Of a stretch of DNA of 64,000 bases, positions 28,845 through 36,147 are shown piece by piece; position 1 is the stretch's first letter, and each line of letters starts with the position of its first letter. Below the pieces are notes generated by a model, which did not search any database, was not told the origin of the DNA, and worked only from the letters and a program-made list of their open reading frames with translations. The stretch comes from Methanolobus mangrovi (GTDB taxonomy: Archaea; Halobacteriota; Methanosarcinia; Methanosarcinales; Methanosarcinaceae). Where the stretch lies: assembly GCF_031312535.1 (NCBI RefSeq), contig NZ_CP133594.1, forward strand, positions 2,213,934 through 2,277,933, written 5' to 3'. Position numbers and translations under genes: made by a program.

Positions 28845-28982
28845 TCTGGAATTACCTTTTTCCACTACATTTCAAAAGATATTTAATGTACACAGGGATA
28901 TATTCAATAATGTCCTGTGTATCCCATATTTCTATTTTATGGATATTACATCGAACAGGTAACAAATGATATGGAGATATCC

Positions 28983-30176
28983 ATGGCAGCCAGATCCAGT
29001 AAAATAACAGGTCAGGAGACTGACCCTGAATCCGTAAAAGGGAGTGCAGTGGAAGAAGGCACACTTCTTTTTGAGACTACGGGCAAAGAGAAAGTATACA
29101 GGTATAAGGATTCTATTTTGCTAAGTCTGCCTGAGGGGAGAAACACTCTCACGACATCGTGGTTGAATGGTGGGTACAGGGAAGACCTGAGGGTAATTTT
29201 CAATCACAGGGTCCCAAAAGGAAAACATGCTCCAAAAGACCTGGATGGTGGAAGCATTCCTGCTTACCTGTCCATCCTGGCAAAGAGACTGGGCGCTGAT
29301 CCTGACACTGCCACAGGGTTGCTGACGGCTGCCAATATGGACAATGTTTCGATCGTGACCAGATCTTTTCGTGGTGTGGAGGTAACGGCTGTCATGACCG
29401 CGGGCATTGAGGTAAATGGTGGGCGTGTTGGCGACCCTGCATCATATTATCAGGAGAATGGTTCCCATCAGTTCATTCAGGGGACTATAAACACTATGCT
29501 GATAATAGGTGCAAACCTGCCTCCATATGCTATGGCAAGAGCCGTCATCACAGCTACGGAAGCCAAGACTGCAGCTTTGCAGCAATTGATGGCTCCAAGC
29601 CGTTATTCCACTGGAATTGCAACCGGTTCGGGAACTGATATGATAGCTGTTGTTGCAGATTCTACAAGTTCTCTTTTGCTGACAGATGCAGGTCATCATT
29701 CCAAGCTTGGCGAGCTAATAGGTAAAGTTGTGATCGAGTGCACTTTCAAGGCACTTGAAATGCAGTCTGACCTGACACCTCTTTCCCAGAGGGATGTACT
29801 TGTGAGGCTTGAACGGTTTGGGATTGAAGAGAACCATTATTGGAAAGTGGCATCACATATGGACGGGGATAATCGCAAAGCAGCTTTTTTCAAGACATTA
29901 CGGGAGATGTCAAAGAACCCTGTTCTGGTAAGTGCAACAGGCTCGATACTGCATATTGTGGATGAGATCTCATGGGGTCTTATTCCTGAGACTGCCGGCA
30001 GAAAGGTAGCTGTATCTATTATGAAGGGACTGCCTGAAATGCTTGGTATAGACGCTTCCATACCATTCGATGAACTGACTGACGAAAAAGATACGATAAT
30101 TGAGAATTGGGTCCGTGTTACTGCCTGGCTGGCAAAGAACTGTGACCCTGAAGATATTTGTAGTTCCAGAACCTGA
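28983..30176 (+). CDS. cbiZ: Adenosylcobinamide amidohydrolase CbiZ
   Basis: About 397 residues. The CbiZ core lies between 110 and 250: VEVTAVMTAGIEVNGGRVGDP, a GTINTMLIIGANLPPYAMARAVITATEAKTAAL helix and a GTDMIAVVADSTSSLLLTDAGHHSKLGELIG tail. CbiZ removes the aminopropanol side chain of salvaged cobinamide to give cobyric acid, used for coenzyme B12-like corrinoids of methyltransferases. The final 130 residues and the first 60 lie outside the core and may be an extra domain. The ATG at 28983 (SD GGAGAT, 5 nt spacing) is chosen; an ATG at 28971 is the alternative. It is followed by a TIM-barrel gene 18 nt away. Confidence 0.88.
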   Translation: MAARSSKITGQETDPESVKGSAVEEGTLLFETTGKEKVYRYKDSILLSLPEGRNTLTTSWLNGGYREDLRVIFNHRVPKGKHAPKDLDGGSIPAYLSILAKRLGADPDTATGLLTAANMDNVSIVTRSFRGVEVTAVMTAGIEVNGGRVGDPASYYQENGSHQFIQGTINTMLIIGANLPPYAMARAVITATEAKTAALQQLMAPSRYSTGIATGSGTDMIAVVADSTSSLLLTDAGHHSKLGELIGKVVIECTFKALEMQSDLTPLSQRDVLVRLERFGIEENHYWKVASHMDGDNRKAAFFKTLREMSKNPVLVSATGSILHIVDEISWGLIPETAGRKVAVSIMKGLPEMLGIDASIPFDELTDEKDTIIENWVRVTAWLAKNCDPEDICSSRT

Positions 30177-30194
30177 TTCATCAGGAGTGCAAAA

Positions 30195-31175
30195 ATGAAA
30201 GAACTGATGAATTTATCTCTTTATGAGAATGACATGAAAATGTTCGACCATGATTGGGGCAAAATTCGGAATTTCCTTGTCAGGCATGATCTGGATGGGA
30301 TAGAACTCTTTGTGGATTCATCCCCGCTTCCTGATGTTCCAGTTGATCTCATAGAAGGTGTACATCTTCCTTACTGGATGGGCAGACATAGGGCATGGGC
30401 AGATCCTTCTGCTTTTTCCCAGGAAATGGAGGAGTTTGAGAAGGTTTACGTTTTTGGGGGGAGCAATCGTGAGGAAGTGATCGATAATTTCAGGAGATCA
30501 CTTGAGAATGCCGCACTTCTGGATGCATCGTATGCAGTATTCCATGTTTCCTATGCGGAAATGGCACAGGTCTTTACACGCTGTTTTGATTGCACTGACC
30601 ATGATGTGCTCGAAACAACTGCAGAATTCCTGAATAAGGCGGTATCTGTTTATCCAAACGGTGAGCCTCCGGTCCGTTTATTCTTTGAGAATCTCTGGTG
30701 GCCGGGACTTACATTCCTTGAGCCTATGAATGTTGAATATTTTTCTTCTCTTCTTGATTTTGATAACTGGGCTTTTGTGTTAGATACGGGGCATCTTATG
30801 AATGCTACAATGAAATGTGAGGATGAGGAATGTTCAATAGATGTTGTAATGGATCTGCTTTCCACTCATTCAGAAGATTTCATCAAGCGAATTGAAGGCA
30901 TGCATTTCCATTGCAGCCTGTCGGGAGAATACATGCGTAATTCCATTGGGAAAGAACTTCCGGCCGGGTTTGATGATATGCCTTTCCATGACCGTTTGTT
31001 GTCTGTTATGGAAATCCTTGAACAGATGGACCATCATATGCCATTTACCAGTGAGAAGTGTTCGCAAATAGTCGATTTCGTGTCCCCTGATTTCCTTACG
31101 CACGAATTTGTTTCAAGTGACCTGCGCTCTCTCGATGAGAAGCTCTCTGAACAGAAGCGTGCATTGCATGGGTGA
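30195..31175 (+). CDS. Xylose isomerase-like TIM-barrel protein
   Basis: A 326-residue protein of the AP endonuclease 2/sugar-phosphate isomerase fold. Motifs include DGIELFVDSSPLPD (second strand), a GVHLPYWMGRHRAW metal region, RLFFENLWWP (a catalytic Glu) and VLDTGHLMNATMK with the following GMHFHCSL. Metal ligands of the fold (Glu, Asp, His, His) seem present. It shares an operon with CbiZ (18 nt spacing), so a corrinoid or sugar intermediate is a reasonable guess. An epimerase or isomerase activity is likely, but its substrate is not shown. The ribosome site is GGAGTGC before the ATG. Confidence 0.72.
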   Translation: MKELMNLSLYENDMKMFDHDWGKIRNFLVRHDLDGIELFVDSSPLPDVPVDLIEGVHLPYWMGRHRAWADPSAFSQEMEEFEKVYVFGGSNREEVIDNFRRSLENAALLDASYAVFHVSYAEMAQVFTRCFDCTDHDVLETTAEFLNKAVSVYPNGEPPVRLFFENLWWPGLTFLEPMNVEYFSSLLDFDNWAFVLDTGHLMNATMKCEDEECSIDVVMDLLSTHSEDFIKRIEGMHFHCSLSGEYMRNSIGKELPAGFDDMPFHDRLLSVMEILEQMDHHMPFTSEKCSQIVDFVSPDFLTHEFVSSDLRSLDEKLSEQKRALHG

Positions 31176-31861: not shown

Positions 31862-32081
31862 TCTTCTATTTAGTCTCTATTAATTAGTAGATTCACTATC
31901 ACATCTCCATCAATACCTCCTTCATTTTATTCTTTCACTTTTTTGTTTTGTTCCTGCTTAAAGGGGTGCGTTGGCTACATCCTCATGAATGAATACTTTC
32001 ACCCCGCTTGCCAGTTGCTTATATCCATGTCAGGCGTATTGCTCACTGATGATTCAGAGGAATCCTGTTAATGAGCACCAT

Positions 32082-33191
32082 ATGACGCTTATGGAAAGGA
32101 TGAGAGTATTGTCCGAAGGCACCAAATATGATAGTTGCAACCAGAGTGCAGTCTGCCATGCTTTTGGGCCTGATGGCCGCTGCATACAACTCTACAAGAC
32201 TTTGATGACAAATTCGTGTTCAGGTGAGTGCACATATTGTCCTAACAGGTGTGGCAGGGATTCTGTACGTGCATCATTAAGTCCTGAGGAAATTGTAAAG
32301 ATCACATGGTCTTTCTACAGAAGAAATGCAATAGAGGGTCTATTCCTATCCTCTGGTGTGATGGGGGATTCTGAAAGAACTGCAGAGAAGCAACTGGAGG
32401 TTGCAAGACTTCTCAGGGGTCAGGGATTTACCGGTTATATCCATATTCGTGTGATGCCCGGTACTCCGAAGTACCTGCTTGAGGAAATTGCAGATTGTGC
32501 AAATAAGTTTGGTGTGAATGCGGAGACTACAAGTTCACTGAACTATTCAGAAATATGTCCGAATTTTGATTACCAAAATGATGTGCTTCAACGCTTACAG
32601 TGGACACGGGACCTTATTAATAAAAAAAGGCGTGATGCAGGCTCCAGAGGTCGCATCATTGGTGCTAATGACACTCAATTCGTTGTAGGGGCCCTGCAGG
32701 AATCTGACAGGGAGATCATTGGAACTGTCGAGAAGTTCATGGACCAATATGAATTAAGAAGGCCATATTTCATGAGTTTTGATCCGGTCCCGTTCACGCC
32801 TCTTGAAAATAATGAGCCTTCTCCCCAGTGGAGGGAAACAAGGCTGTATCAGACCTCTTATCTTTTAAAGGACTATGGTTTGACCGCAAATGATCTGGAT
32901 CATGTCCTCGATGATAATGGTTTTCTCTGCAATGCTGATCCAAAGATGCTTCTTGCATCATGTCGTCCTGATATGTTCCCGGTGGACATAAATTCTGCAA
33001 GCAGGGATGAATTGCTTACAGTACCTGGAATTGGTCCTGTCGGTGCGAACAGGATCATGCAGTCAAGACCTATAGCATCAGAAAAGGAACTTTCACGCAT
33101 GGGTATTGTGCTGGCCCGCGCACGACCATTTATCTCGATAAATGGAAAGAAACAGACTAATCTTTTTTCTTTTGCAGGGGTGGGTGCATGA
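32082..33191 (+). CDS. Radical SAM DNA modification/repair protein
   Basis: About 369 residues of the TIGR03916-type radical SAM family, which is normally linked to DUF4130 and to uracil-DNA glycosylase in bacteria. The cluster motif is CSGECTYC (cysteines at 46, 50 and 53). The N-terminal VLSEGTKYDSCNQSAVCH carries extra cysteines. A ComEA-like helix-hairpin-helix (VDINSASRDELLTVPGIGP) near residue 295 suggests DNA binding. It makes a SAM-derived radical, but the reaction is unknown. The start is set at ATG 32082 by a TATA box near 32017-32025. The stop overlaps the ATG of the next gene (ATGA), so translation is coupled. Confidence 0.88.
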   Translation: MTLMERMRVLSEGTKYDSCNQSAVCHAFGPDGRCIQLYKTLMTNSCSGECTYCPNRCGRDSVRASLSPEEIVKITWSFYRRNAIEGLFLSSGVMGDSERTAEKQLEVARLLRGQGFTGYIHIRVMPGTPKYLLEEIADCANKFGVNAETTSSLNYSEICPNFDYQNDVLQRLQWTRDLINKKRRDAGSRGRIIGANDTQFVVGALQESDREIIGTVEKFMDQYELRRPYFMSFDPVPFTPLENNEPSPQWRETRLYQTSYLLKDYGLTANDLDHVLDDNGFLCNADPKMLLASCRPDMFPVDINSASRDELLTVPGIGPVGANRIMQSRPIASEKELSRMGIVLARARPFISINGKKQTNLFSFAGVGA

Positions 33192-34021
33192 TAGTAGCCT
33201 TCAGGGAAAATGTCGGGGGTGTTCTGCTTGCCTGTGCAGAACTCATGGAAGATCCGAATTGTGATCTTATCTCTGCAAAGGATAAAGATGGGCTGCAACA
33301 AAAAATGGATTTCGCTGGCGTTGATGAGGTGAAGGTGCTTGGTTTCAGAGGTATTGCAGACACAACAACACTCGTTCGCAACATATTTGGAAAACAGGGT
33401 TCAAGAATGTTCCAGCGTGACCCTGACGTTGAAGGATACATAGCCATGGTATTGAGACATAGAAGTTCATCACCTGTTGAACTGGTTCGTTTTCTATGTT
33501 CCTGTAAAGATAATGTTGATCTTCTTTATTCCGGGAAGAGTATCACCGGCAAGAAATACTACAATTTCATGCGTGATGTAACCCGTTCATATCATCGTTT
33601 ATGCATGTTTGCACGTCCCTATTTTGTGAATGGGGTACTGTCTGTTAAAGTCGATTCACCACATCAGATAGGGGATATGTTCTGTCGCTGGCTTGCAAGG
33701 AAGAACCCCGACCTTCCCGTTTCAGTTATCGAGGGGGAAATTGCATGGATCGGTAATGGCAGACACGTAGGTCTTGAACATTTCACAAAGGTTCCCTCCT
33801 CACTGGCAGGAAGTCTGGAGTTCTCCAATGGACGTGATGAGGTCGATGATATGTGGGATATGTACTATGATTCACAGATGATCCCGAATCGAAGAAACAA
33901 AAGCCATGCTAAAAAACTGCAGCCTAAGGCTTCAGCATCTATGAGTGGGATGTCGGAAAGGGATAGGTACAAAGTTGAAAGAGGGATTGCAAACTGCACT
34001 CTGGATAATTTCGTATCCTAA
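33188..34021 (+). CDS. DUF4130 DNA-metabolism protein
   Basis: A 277-residue protein matching the TIGR03915/DUF4130 family, the partner of the radical SAM protein encoded upstream. Characteristic sequence includes AVIEGEIAWIGN-like, YHRLCMFARPYFVNGV and HVGLEHFTKVPSSLAGS. In bacterial relatives this region is fused to or followed by a family 4/6 uracil-DNA glycosylase, and that domain is absent here. The overlap of 4 nt with the upstream gene and a short 11-nt gap to the MutS-like gene place all three in one operon. The C-terminus is rich in polar residues. No catalytic motif can be named. Confidence 0.85.
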   Translation: MIVAFRENVGGVLLACAELMEDPNCDLISAKDKDGLQQKMDFAGVDEVKVLGFRGIADTTTLVRNIFGKQGSRMFQRDPDVEGYIAMVLRHRSSSPVELVRFLCSCKDNVDLLYSGKSITGKKYYNFMRDVTRSYHRLCMFARPYFVNGVLSVKVDSPHQIGDMFCRWLARKNPDLPVSVIEGEIAWIGNGRHVGLEHFTKVPSSLAGSLEFSNGRDEVDDMWDMYYDSQMIPNRRNKSHAKKLQPKASASMSGMSERDRYKVERGIANCTLDNFVS

Positions 34022-34032
34022 TTGGAGGTATA

Positions 34033-36147
34033 ATGTTAGCTGAAGTCAGGACCTTACAGGATATTCCTCGTATTGGGGATAAAATGTCTAAACGTTTTGT
34101 AGATCATTTCGGTAGTGAGAACCAGGCACTTGATGCTATACTTGCCGGGGATATAGCAAGTATTTCCGAGGTAGAAGGCGTTGGCCAGCGTTATGCCATA
34201 TCTCTGATGCAGGATGTCGCTTCCAGGGTTGAAGGTGTAAATGTCTCTGATTTTCTAAGGACCAAGGAGTCAATGGATGTGTATGAGAAATTGCTTGACC
34301 TTGTCAAGGAGTTTGCACACACTCGATATTCCAGGGACAAACTGCATATTTTTTTCCCGTATCCTTCTGCCAAAGTCGAAAAGATAATGAAGGTGCGTGA
34401 ATCGGTTTCATATTACATGGAAACTGCCAAATTGCTGGAAACTGATGAGACTATTGTTGATCTGTTGTCAAAGACGACTCAACTCAATTTTAAACACCAG
34501 TGTCCTAAGGTACGTGACAGGGTTATCATAACATCTGACCAGGATAGTTACGAATATGCCAGAAAACGTTTTGCAGGATTGGTCGATGTGAATTTTGCGC
34601 GCTCCCTTTCCGAATTTATTGATGTTTCAAGAGGCTTTTCCCAGGTCATCGTTGTAGGTGATGATTACCTGTCATTCGATCTTCCTGAAGACGTGGAGCC
34701 TGAGTTCTTTTCTGACATGCAGGAAATAGATGATTTCAAGGTTATACCTGAAAAGGAAATAGTTGCATTTTCCAGAAATCTCAAGTCACTGGAATCTTCT
34801 ATCAAAGTGATAAGGTTGCTTCGTTCCAGGGGAATTGATTTTTTTGACCGAATGGACGACGATAAACTTGAGTTGCTTGCTTCCACGCTGGCTTTAATTG
34901 ATGAGAATGGTGATATTGCTCATGGTACGGATGAAGAGGTGGACAGGGTTTCCGATGCTATAGATAAGCTTAGTTCAACCGTTTCAGAAACAGTCCGCTT
35001 TTTGAATGATAGTCTTAATTCCTGTCTTGAGAATAGTCAGATGACTCTCAGTGGACAGGATATGCTGAAGGTGATGAATGGTACAATTGAGCTGAAAGAG
35101 ATGCTTGGAAAGAAGCTTCACAAGAGTTATCATTCTATTGTAAAAGAATGTACAGACAGGATATGCAATGAACTTCAGCTTGAGAGGAAAGAAAGATTAA
35201 TGGTTGATTCTCTTTTCCCGGAAGAGATAATGCATCCTGTTGAAGCTGACGTTGATAAACTCAATGCTTTAAAACAACATCTGAAGACAAAATCCCTGAA
35301 ACGAAAATTCAATCACAAGCGCGAAGTTTCCCGCATATTGTCTTCTTACAGGGAAATTGTCCGGGAGATGGTTCGTGAAGTACTCGATTTCGATGTAGGA
35401 TTTGCTATCGGTACTTTTGCCCAGGAATACAATCTTATGATGCCGGAAATTGTGGAACACACAGGGATTGGTTTTAATGGTGGAAGGAACCTTTTCCTGC
35501 TTTCCAGGCATGGTGATGTAGTACCAATTGATTATTCGGTGGGAGAGAACAGCCTGAGTCCCAGAGATGAGGCCAGCAGGGTTGTGCTTTTGAGTGGTGT
35601 GAATTCAGGAGGTAAGACCTCTCTTCTGGAACTTCTTGCCCAGAGTATTATCCTTGCACATATGGGATTCCCTGTTCCTGCAGGGCATATGGAACTGTCT
35701 CTTACTGAGTCTATGTACTACTTTGCCAAATCCAAAGGCACTCTGGATGCAGGTGCATTCGAAACGACTCTTACCGAGTTTTCCGTGGTGGCTGATGATT
35801 CTGCAAAATTTGTGCTTGCGGATGAACTTGAATCGATCACCGAACCGGGGGCTTCTGCAAAGATAATGGCTGGTATTCTTGAGGTGCTAACTGAGAACAA
35901 CAGTACCATGTCTATATTTGTATCGCATCTTTCAGAGCAGATAATGGAGAATACGACCTGTGATATCAGAGTTGACGGAATAGAGGCAAGTGGGCTGGAT
36001 GCTGATCTTAATTTAATAGTGGACAGAAGTCCTCGCTATAATTATATTGCAAAAAGCACCCCTGAACTGATAGTTGAAAGGCTCTCAAAAAAGACAGAGG
36101 GAAAAGAACAGGCCTTCTATGATAAATTAAGGAGTAAGTTCCAGTAG
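34033..36147 (+). CDS. MutS-like ATPase with N-terminal HhH
   Basis: A 704-residue ATPase of the MutS superfamily. The N-terminus (IPRIGDKMSKRFVDHFG... EVEGVGQRYAISLMQDV, about 10-55) is a helix-hairpin-helix DNA-binding region, absent from ordinary MutS. The middle is helical (core/lever and clamp, 280-480), and the P-loop reads GVNSGGKT (about 522-529; MutS has GPNMGGKS), with FVLADELE as Walker B and HLSEQI as the switch histidine. It lacks the mismatch-recognition domain, so it resembles MutS2/MutS5-type proteins. It is likely part of a repair or recombination system with the radical SAM and DUF4130 proteins. The ribosome site is GGAGGT, 4 nt before the ATG. Confidence 0.85.
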   Translation: MLAEVRTLQDIPRIGDKMSKRFVDHFGSENQALDAILAGDIASISEVEGVGQRYAISLMQDVASRVEGVNVSDFLRTKESMDVYEKLLDLVKEFAHTRYSRDKLHIFFPYPSAKVEKIMKVRESVSYYMETAKLLETDETIVDLLSKTTQLNFKHQCPKVRDRVIITSDQDSYEYARKRFAGLVDVNFARSLSEFIDVSRGFSQVIVVGDDYLSFDLPEDVEPEFFSDMQEIDDFKVIPEKEIVAFSRNLKSLESSIKVIRLLRSRGIDFFDRMDDDKLELLASTLALIDENGDIAHGTDEEVDRVSDAIDKLSSTVSETVRFLNDSLNSCLENSQMTLSGQDMLKVMNGTIELKEMLGKKLHKSYHSIVKECTDRICNELQLERKERLMVDSLFPEEIMHPVEADVDKLNALKQHLKTKSLKRKFNHKREVSRILSSYREIVREMVREVLDFDVGFAIGTFAQEYNLMMPEIVEHTGIGFNGGRNLFLLSRHGDVVPIDYSVGENSLSPRDEASRVVLLSGVNSGGKTSLLELLAQSIILAHMGFPVPAGHMELSLTESMYYFAKSKGTLDAGAFETTLTEFSVVADDSAKFVLADELESITEPGASAKIMAGILEVLTENNSTMSIFVSHLSEQIMENTTCDIRVDGIEASGLDADLNLIVDRSPRYNYIAKSTPELIVERLSKKTEGKEQAFYDKLRSKFQ

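Follow-up and report, generated by a model that had tools for sequence, protein, structure and literature searches.

The 64,000-nucleotide (nt) stretch of Methanolobus mangrovi DNA analysed here, hereafter the window (contig NZ_CP133594.1, positions 2,213,934 to 2,277,933), contains three adjacent genes for a radical SAM (rSAM) protein, a DUF4130 protein and a MutS-like ATPase. The open reading frames, all on the plus strand, are confirmed at 31989/32082-33191, 33188-34021 and 34033-36147. The rSAM and DUF4130 frames overlap by 4 nt (ATGA), and the gap of 11 nt from the DUF4130 stop to the MutS-like ATG contains a GGAGG ribosome site. A sequence-only reading had described a three-gene operon with this overlap, this gap and these domains, and all are found as stated. 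The features are as follows.

31995..32009, plus strand: promoter box ACTTTCACCCCGCTT, at a fixed distance from TATA and shared with repair genes
From 31992, plus strand: extended form of the box, AATACTTTCACCCCGCTT
32018..32024, plus strand: TATA box CTTATAT, conserved in aligned promoters
32049..33191, plus strand: radical SAM protein with a C-terminal helix-hairpin-helix (HhH), 380 residues from the conserved ATG (Pfam/NCBIfam)
32136..32183, plus strand: three further cysteines, C19, C25 and C34 (numbered from 32082), by conservation with DUF4130
32217..32240, plus strand: radical SAM cluster motif C-x3-C-x2-C (CSGECTYC), invariant in 48 aligned relatives
32988..33062, plus strand: HhH motif of the rSAM protein (PF00633)
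33188..34021, plus strand: DUF4130 protein, residues 1-217 with a predicted DHH/DHHA1-like fold (PF13566, AlphaFold model)
34033..36147, plus strand: HhH-MutS-like ATPase, 704 residues (MutS_V, fold match)
34048..34197, plus strand: N-terminal HhH of the MutS-like protein (HHH_5, family profile)
35587..35943, plus strand: MutS domain V ATPase (PF00488)
35596-35619, plus strand: Walker A motif GVNSGGKT of the MutS-like ATPase, invariant in 15 relatives

The rSAM start differs from that of the earlier reading, which had placed it at ATG 32082. In the leader alignment, ATG 32082 is not kept in the aligned Methanolobus loci, ATG 32049 is kept in all of them, and the alternative start at 31989 falls within the promoter; thus, 32049 is most likely the rSAM start. 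The position of the TATA box places the transcript start near 32049, and the message is therefore probably leaderless.

A Promoter Box Shared with Repair Genes

TTATAT starts 24 nt downstream of the first nucleotide of the box, and this spacing is kept in nearly all checkable Methanosarcinaceae rSAM promoters, even when the upstream gene is different. In the window ACTTTCACCCCGCTT is the sole strong match, at 47.8 bits, the next match scoring 3.4. Elsewhere in the genome, close matches precede the genes (identified by Pfam) for RPA (locus L313), radA (L316), topA (L318), uvrA (L319), recQ (L320) and a Hef-like helicase (L321), and a box with two mismatches precedes xseA (L334). Of the other close sites, two lie ahead of a micro-ORF and a possible small RNA, and one, L317, falls inside a gene.

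The same association is found in other genomes. In 60 relatives, the exact 15-mer occurs at 48 sites, as compared with 0 for the reversed pattern, and radA, RPA, uvrA, recQ and hef recur behind it, as does rmuC by sequence reading. In a phylum-wide set of 296 genomes, the pattern ACTTTCRCCCCGC is present in 125, and by our own tally there are ~288 sites versus 22 for the reversed pattern. The box precedes radA in genomes G214 and G164, RPA in G231 and two Halobacteria, Hef-like helicase genes in Halobacteria, and an XPB-like helicase gene in G107. It also lies directly upstream of Orc1/Cdc6 genes, two in G214 (L518 and L521) and one in G078 (L365). Some exact boxes within genes of GC-rich Halobacteria are probably there by chance. 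Our literature search, which was non-exhaustive and covered few subscription papers, found no report of the box in archaea.

Outside the Methanosarcinaceae, rSAM promoters contain the box, with two mismatches at most, in 23 of 40 genomes; the antisense and reversed controls each give 0/40. It follows that over most of the phylum the box is linked to the rSAM gene itself, and judged from these promoters it goes with that gene whether or not DUF4130 is present.

Other box sites were observed as well. At L322 (G000:C1:2564508-2564536, minus strand), a conserved micro-ORF of 26 residues, MDEYFETMVERASYYEQFEEFVRYYK, with a ribosome site, lies behind the box; it is also found at L345 and L363, with the variant MDDFFTELVNRARYYEQFEEFVRAHK in Methanococcoides and a 47-residue version at L363. 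The micro-ORF could possibly encode a damage-induced small protein. At L314 (G000:C1:2090283-2090297, minus strand), L349, L355, L357, L361 and L368, the box-TATA promoter is followed by a conserved stretch of ~60 nt, ATGAACACACGCC-TTACACGCTTCAAGGC...GCCATC. No conserved reading frame lies beyond this stretch and it has no Rfam match; it is possibly a small RNA. Near-box sites L335 (G000:C1:1577042-1577070) and L328 (G000:C1:508275-508303) precede genes for a nucleoside 2-deoxyribosyltransferase and a tyrosine recombinase. Exact boxes at L511 and L514 (G231) and L526 (G164) have transposase-like genes (sequence reading) and a cytosine DNA methyltransferase gene downstream, which may mean that mobile genes have in some cases acquired the box promoter.

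The Three Proteins

The rSAM protein belongs to the radical SAM superfamily, as indicated by its Pfam Radical_SAM score of 31.3 bits (cut-off 29.5) and by the CxxxCxxC motif, invariant in 48 sequences; its HHH domain scores 26.2 (cut-off 24). It had been called a TIGR03916-type protein. The family relationship and the C-terminal HhH stand, but the score against TIGR03916 (rSAM_link_UDG), 284.6, is below the curated cut-off of 343.5. That cut-off is reached in none of the 296 genomes, the top score being 336.6, and by these scores the protein is a divergent relative of the family. C19, C25 and C34 are 100% conserved in sequences accompanied by DUF4130, and C25 is absent in 12/12 rSAM proteins without DUF4130. 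These cysteines may form an auxiliary cluster or metal site, which, because C25 is lost in all 12, perhaps depends on DUF4130.

The DUF4130 protein matches PF13566 at 27.7 bits (gathering cut-off 27) and scores 19.2 against the TIGR03915 equivalog, under the cut-off of 112.25. An earlier paper predicted that DUF4130 is a mutagenesis-related enzyme and linked it to rSAM and uracil-DNA glycosylase (UDG) (PMC3765255). The AlphaFold model (pLDDT 78.5, pTM 0.73) gives a Foldseek value of 6.6e-4 to DHH/DHHA1, a match of predicted structure. Residues 1-217 superpose on DHH/DHHA1 proteins with VIA Z scores of 8.1-10.5 and an rmsd of 4-5 over ~200 residues, and the top 24 VIA matches are all RecJ, Cdc45, PAP phosphatase or RecJ2, with the best, at Z 10.5, to RecJ. 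There are no DxD or DHH catalytic motifs among the invariant columns of the DUF4130 alignment. Our best guess is a DHH-like fold without catalysis, in a Cdc45-like, non-catalytic role. In a Methanosalsum-type genome (L071, G031:C1:101526-102374), the DUF4130 frame has an in-frame TAG, which could reflect error, decay or pyrrolysine.

The MutS-like protein scores 32.8 bits with MutS_V (PF00488; cut-off 30.2), and its core, clamp and ATPase fold matches MutS and MutS2 at Z 24; together these place it among the MutS superfamily ATPases. Its scores are under the cut-offs of the curated families, at 32.8 against 641.7 for TIGR01070 and 40.4 against 480 for PRK05399 (both MutS1), 64.1 against 400 for MutS2, and 90 against 300 for the KamC reactivase. 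The N-terminal HHH_5 match, 26.4 bits, is slightly under its cut-off of 27; the family profile finds the HhH domains of topoisomerase V and XPF/Hef.

Gene Order and the Place of the MutS-Like Gene

Among 100 relatives surveyed, an archaeal-type DUF4130 is present in 45 Methanosarcinaceae genomes and in one outside the family, G084. In these genomes DUF4130 is immediately preceded by the rSAM gene and immediately followed by the MutS-like gene wherever the contigs allow. The 42 named loci span Methanolobus, Methanococcoides, Methanohalophilus, Methanomethylovorans, Methanosalsum and ANME-3-like genomes. DUF4130-MutS adjacency holds in 39 of them; two others are contig ends, and the exception is the Methanosarcinales bin G084 (L297), where the pair is present and no MutS-like gene follows within 340 nt. 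Across most of the family the junctions are tight, from -10 to +1 nt for rSAM/DUF4130 and from -4 to +44 nt for DUF4130/MutS. Beyond the Methanosarcinaceae the MutS-like gene lies away from the pair. In family f14, which is probably Methanocella-like, they are separated by 11 kb in G125 and lie far from each other in G107, G116 and G133. The refuting condition of the earlier reading, a MutS-like gene that is not conserved with the pair, thus has a mixed outcome: the trio is conserved, but within a single family.

The flanks are syntenic too, with ArsR upstream and hisBAG and metK downstream. Upstream in Methanolobus and Methanomethylovorans there are also genes for a CbiZ-type amidohydrolase and a CbiR-like TIM-barrel protein (28917-31175 in the window), which serve cobamide remodelling and are outside the operon.

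The MutS-like gene might be a positional passenger, that is, part of an ancestral MutS-hisBA neighbourhood upstream of which the rSAM-DUF4130 pair was inserted. Locus L083 holds ArsR-MutS-hisBAG and has lost the pair, hisB/hisA lie near the MutS-like gene in G125 as well, and relatives of that gene occur in 179 of the 296 genomes, mostly without the pair. Against this, the trio is intact at L289 and L294 although both flanks have changed, and stand-alone MutS-like genes of two lineages bear the same box (L088 and L102 in the Methanosarcinaceae, and 4/4 f14 genomes). The separate rSAM gene of f14 has a clear box at L196 and a weak one elsewhere. Such co-regulation without adjacency is the strongest argument for grouping the MutS-like gene with the pair, and we regard a mere passenger as unlikely. 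Adjacency itself was rejected as the main argument and deemed insufficient.

The sequence-only reading also saw the MutS-like protein as standing in for the glycosylase found with the bacterial pair. We do not retain this idea, as the bacterial pair is often without a neighbouring glycosylase (Lachnospira, Parabacteroides and Acinetobacter records), and the MutS-like gene is widespread without the pair, having its own box in two lineages. In Paracoccus and Agrobacterium, a DUF4130-like part is fused to UdgX. The sole PF03167 match of the M. mangrovi genome is far from the operon; on inspection, its motif A, GEAPG, is family-4-like, and the KRRIH loop is missing.

A Proposed Repair Operon

The layout of the operon, its conservation in the Methanosarcinaceae and a box shared with radA, uvrA, recQ, hef, RPA, topA and xseA suggest that the trio is, with fair probability, one DNA-repair operon transcribed from the promoter of a shared repair regulon. 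A common cis element in front of repair genes, as looked for in an SOS-like regulon, is present. The operon would probably be co-regulated and damage-inducible. This pattern supports the repair side of the archaeal repair or modification pathway, with a radical step, that the sequence-only reading proposed; so does the fact that the bacterial rSAM operon (COG4277 and UDG) is under SOS control (PMC8565304). From this pattern we infer damage control, a regulator, a chemistry and a substrate. The box would be bound by a damage-responsive regulator, for which an Orc1/Cdc6 paralogue is a candidate by analogy with Sulfolobus.

The mechanism we propose is as follows. The MutS-like protein, a clamp ATPase bearing an HhH, would load on distorted or branched DNA. 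DUF4130, with a DHH-like fold lacking catalysis, would assist the rSAM enzyme as a subunit that binds DNA or provides a scaffold. The rSAM enzyme, tethered to DNA by its own HhH, would generate a 5'-deoxyadenosyl radical, and this radical may act in situ on a nucleotide that is damaged or cross-linked, reversing or processing it.

Several results weigh against a repair operon of this kind. The two-mismatch box pattern is not enriched in the genome (26 sites versus 35 for the reversed control), so we place weight on close matches only. The regulon members RPA, TopA, RadA and Orc1 also fit replication or cell-cycle control. There is no box before the MutS-like genes checked in Halobacteria, family f6 and Methanosarcina-type genomes, and because the whole neighbourhood is syntenic, adjacency is weaker evidence than it looks. 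In hhalign comparisons the matches of DUF4130 to RecJ-like and NrnA-like sets do not exceed those to unrelated controls. Sequence proof of DUF4130-DHH kinship was rejected for that reason, and, as the profile-profile comparison is not significant, the predicted fold is drawn from a single AlphaFold model. Neither class of orc1 paralogue has a box upstream in the Methanolobus genes checked, and an autoregulated Orc1 in Methanolobus was rejected.

Another way to read the box is as the mark of a replication or cell-cycle (S-phase-like) regulon, in which the operon would serve replication-coupled genome maintenance and not an inducible damage response. RPA, TopA, RadA, Hef and Orc1/Cdc6 double as replication genes. 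However, uvrA, recQ, xseA, the XPB-like helicase and the SOS control of the bacterial counterpart indicate damage, and the boxless orc1 genes of Methanolobus do not fit; we give this reading a low probability, much as for the passenger. It is less probable still that the operon acts on a normal base modification of DNA or RNA, either installing or removing it. rSAM enzymes commonly modify nucleic acids, and one Parabacteroides pair lies near queF/queC; membership in a repair regulon and bacterial SOS control speak for a lesion instead. That the MutS-like protein is a KamC-type reactivase servicing the radical enzyme, as its top NCBIfam match (ATPase_KamC, 90 bits) and the cobamide genes upstream in Methanolobus might suggest, is very improbable given a score far under the cut-off, an HhH DNA-binding domain, and the occurrence of the gene without the pair and without cobamide genes.

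A role of the trio in defence was also considered and rejected: PADLOC gave no meaningful match, and no relatives were found in viral contigs.

The proposed repair operon, then, is ordinary as annotation and unusual as a system. We know of no SOS-like regulon established for euryarchaeal methanogens, nor of any known substrate for the bacterial rSAM/DUF4130 module. The box regulon suggests an SOS-like repair response not known for Halobacteriota archaea, and the conserved box that ties the rSAM/DUF4130 module to radA, uvrA, RPA, recQ and hef makes the questions of regulon and substrate directly testable.

Comparison with Known Systems

Archaeal MutS5/MutS2-like ATPases share the core, clamp and ATPase domains of the MutS-like protein, in which Pfam does not find the mismatch domain I. 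It differs from them by its N-terminal HhH; no Smr domain is found, and the MutS2-equivalog score is not reached. The DHH/DHHA1 phosphoesterases (RecJ, Cdc45, NrnA) have the fold predicted for DUF4130 residues 1-217. DUF4130 differs in having no detectable profile similarity to them and, as in Cdc45, no DxD/DHH motifs.

A close counterpart of the operon as a unit is the bacterial module of rSAM (COG4277/TIGR03916), TIGR03915/DUF4130 and UdgX. The two have in common an HhH rSAM protein of the same family, a DUF4130 partner in a tight operon, and three extra N-terminal cysteines. The damage-type regulation is likened to that of the box: the COG1573-COG4277 operon (UDG and this rSAM) is SOS-regulated in Bacteroidetes, and, as cited there from other work, in Verrucomicrobia and Alphaproteobacteria (PMC8565304). 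The archaeal operon differs by having no UdgX, an added HhH-MutS gene and scores under the curated cut-offs, and it uses its own promoter box in place of a LexA box.

In Sulfolobus, the A(N)TTTC element, ACTTTC in upsE, lies upstream of the B recognition element (BRE) and TATA and is required for UV-inducible promoters (PMC5817253); it is bound by Orc1-2 (PMC9738581). The box begins like this element; it shares the ACTTTC core and the location upstream of TATA in repair-gene promoters, and in some genomes it too stands before orc1/cdc6 genes. One may speculate further, though we hold the whole proposal to be rather doubtful, that the Halobacteriota possess an SOS-like regulon of ancient date with ACTTTCRCCCCGC as its operator, to which an Orc1/Cdc6 paralogue would bind. 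The arrangement would be homologous to the A(N)TTTC/Orc1-2 system of Sulfolobus, one damage response would be older than the separation of the two archaeal lineages, and rSAM-DUF4130, a radical DNA-repair enzyme, would be the most faithful member of the regulon. If the two elements are indeed related, one ancestral damage response would be common to archaea. The systems also differ: the box is longer (ACTTTCRCCCCGC), starts 24 nt before TATA and belongs to a different phylum, and whereas the Sulfolobus regulon is that of the ups pili, the box regulon comprises radA, uvrA, RPA and hef.

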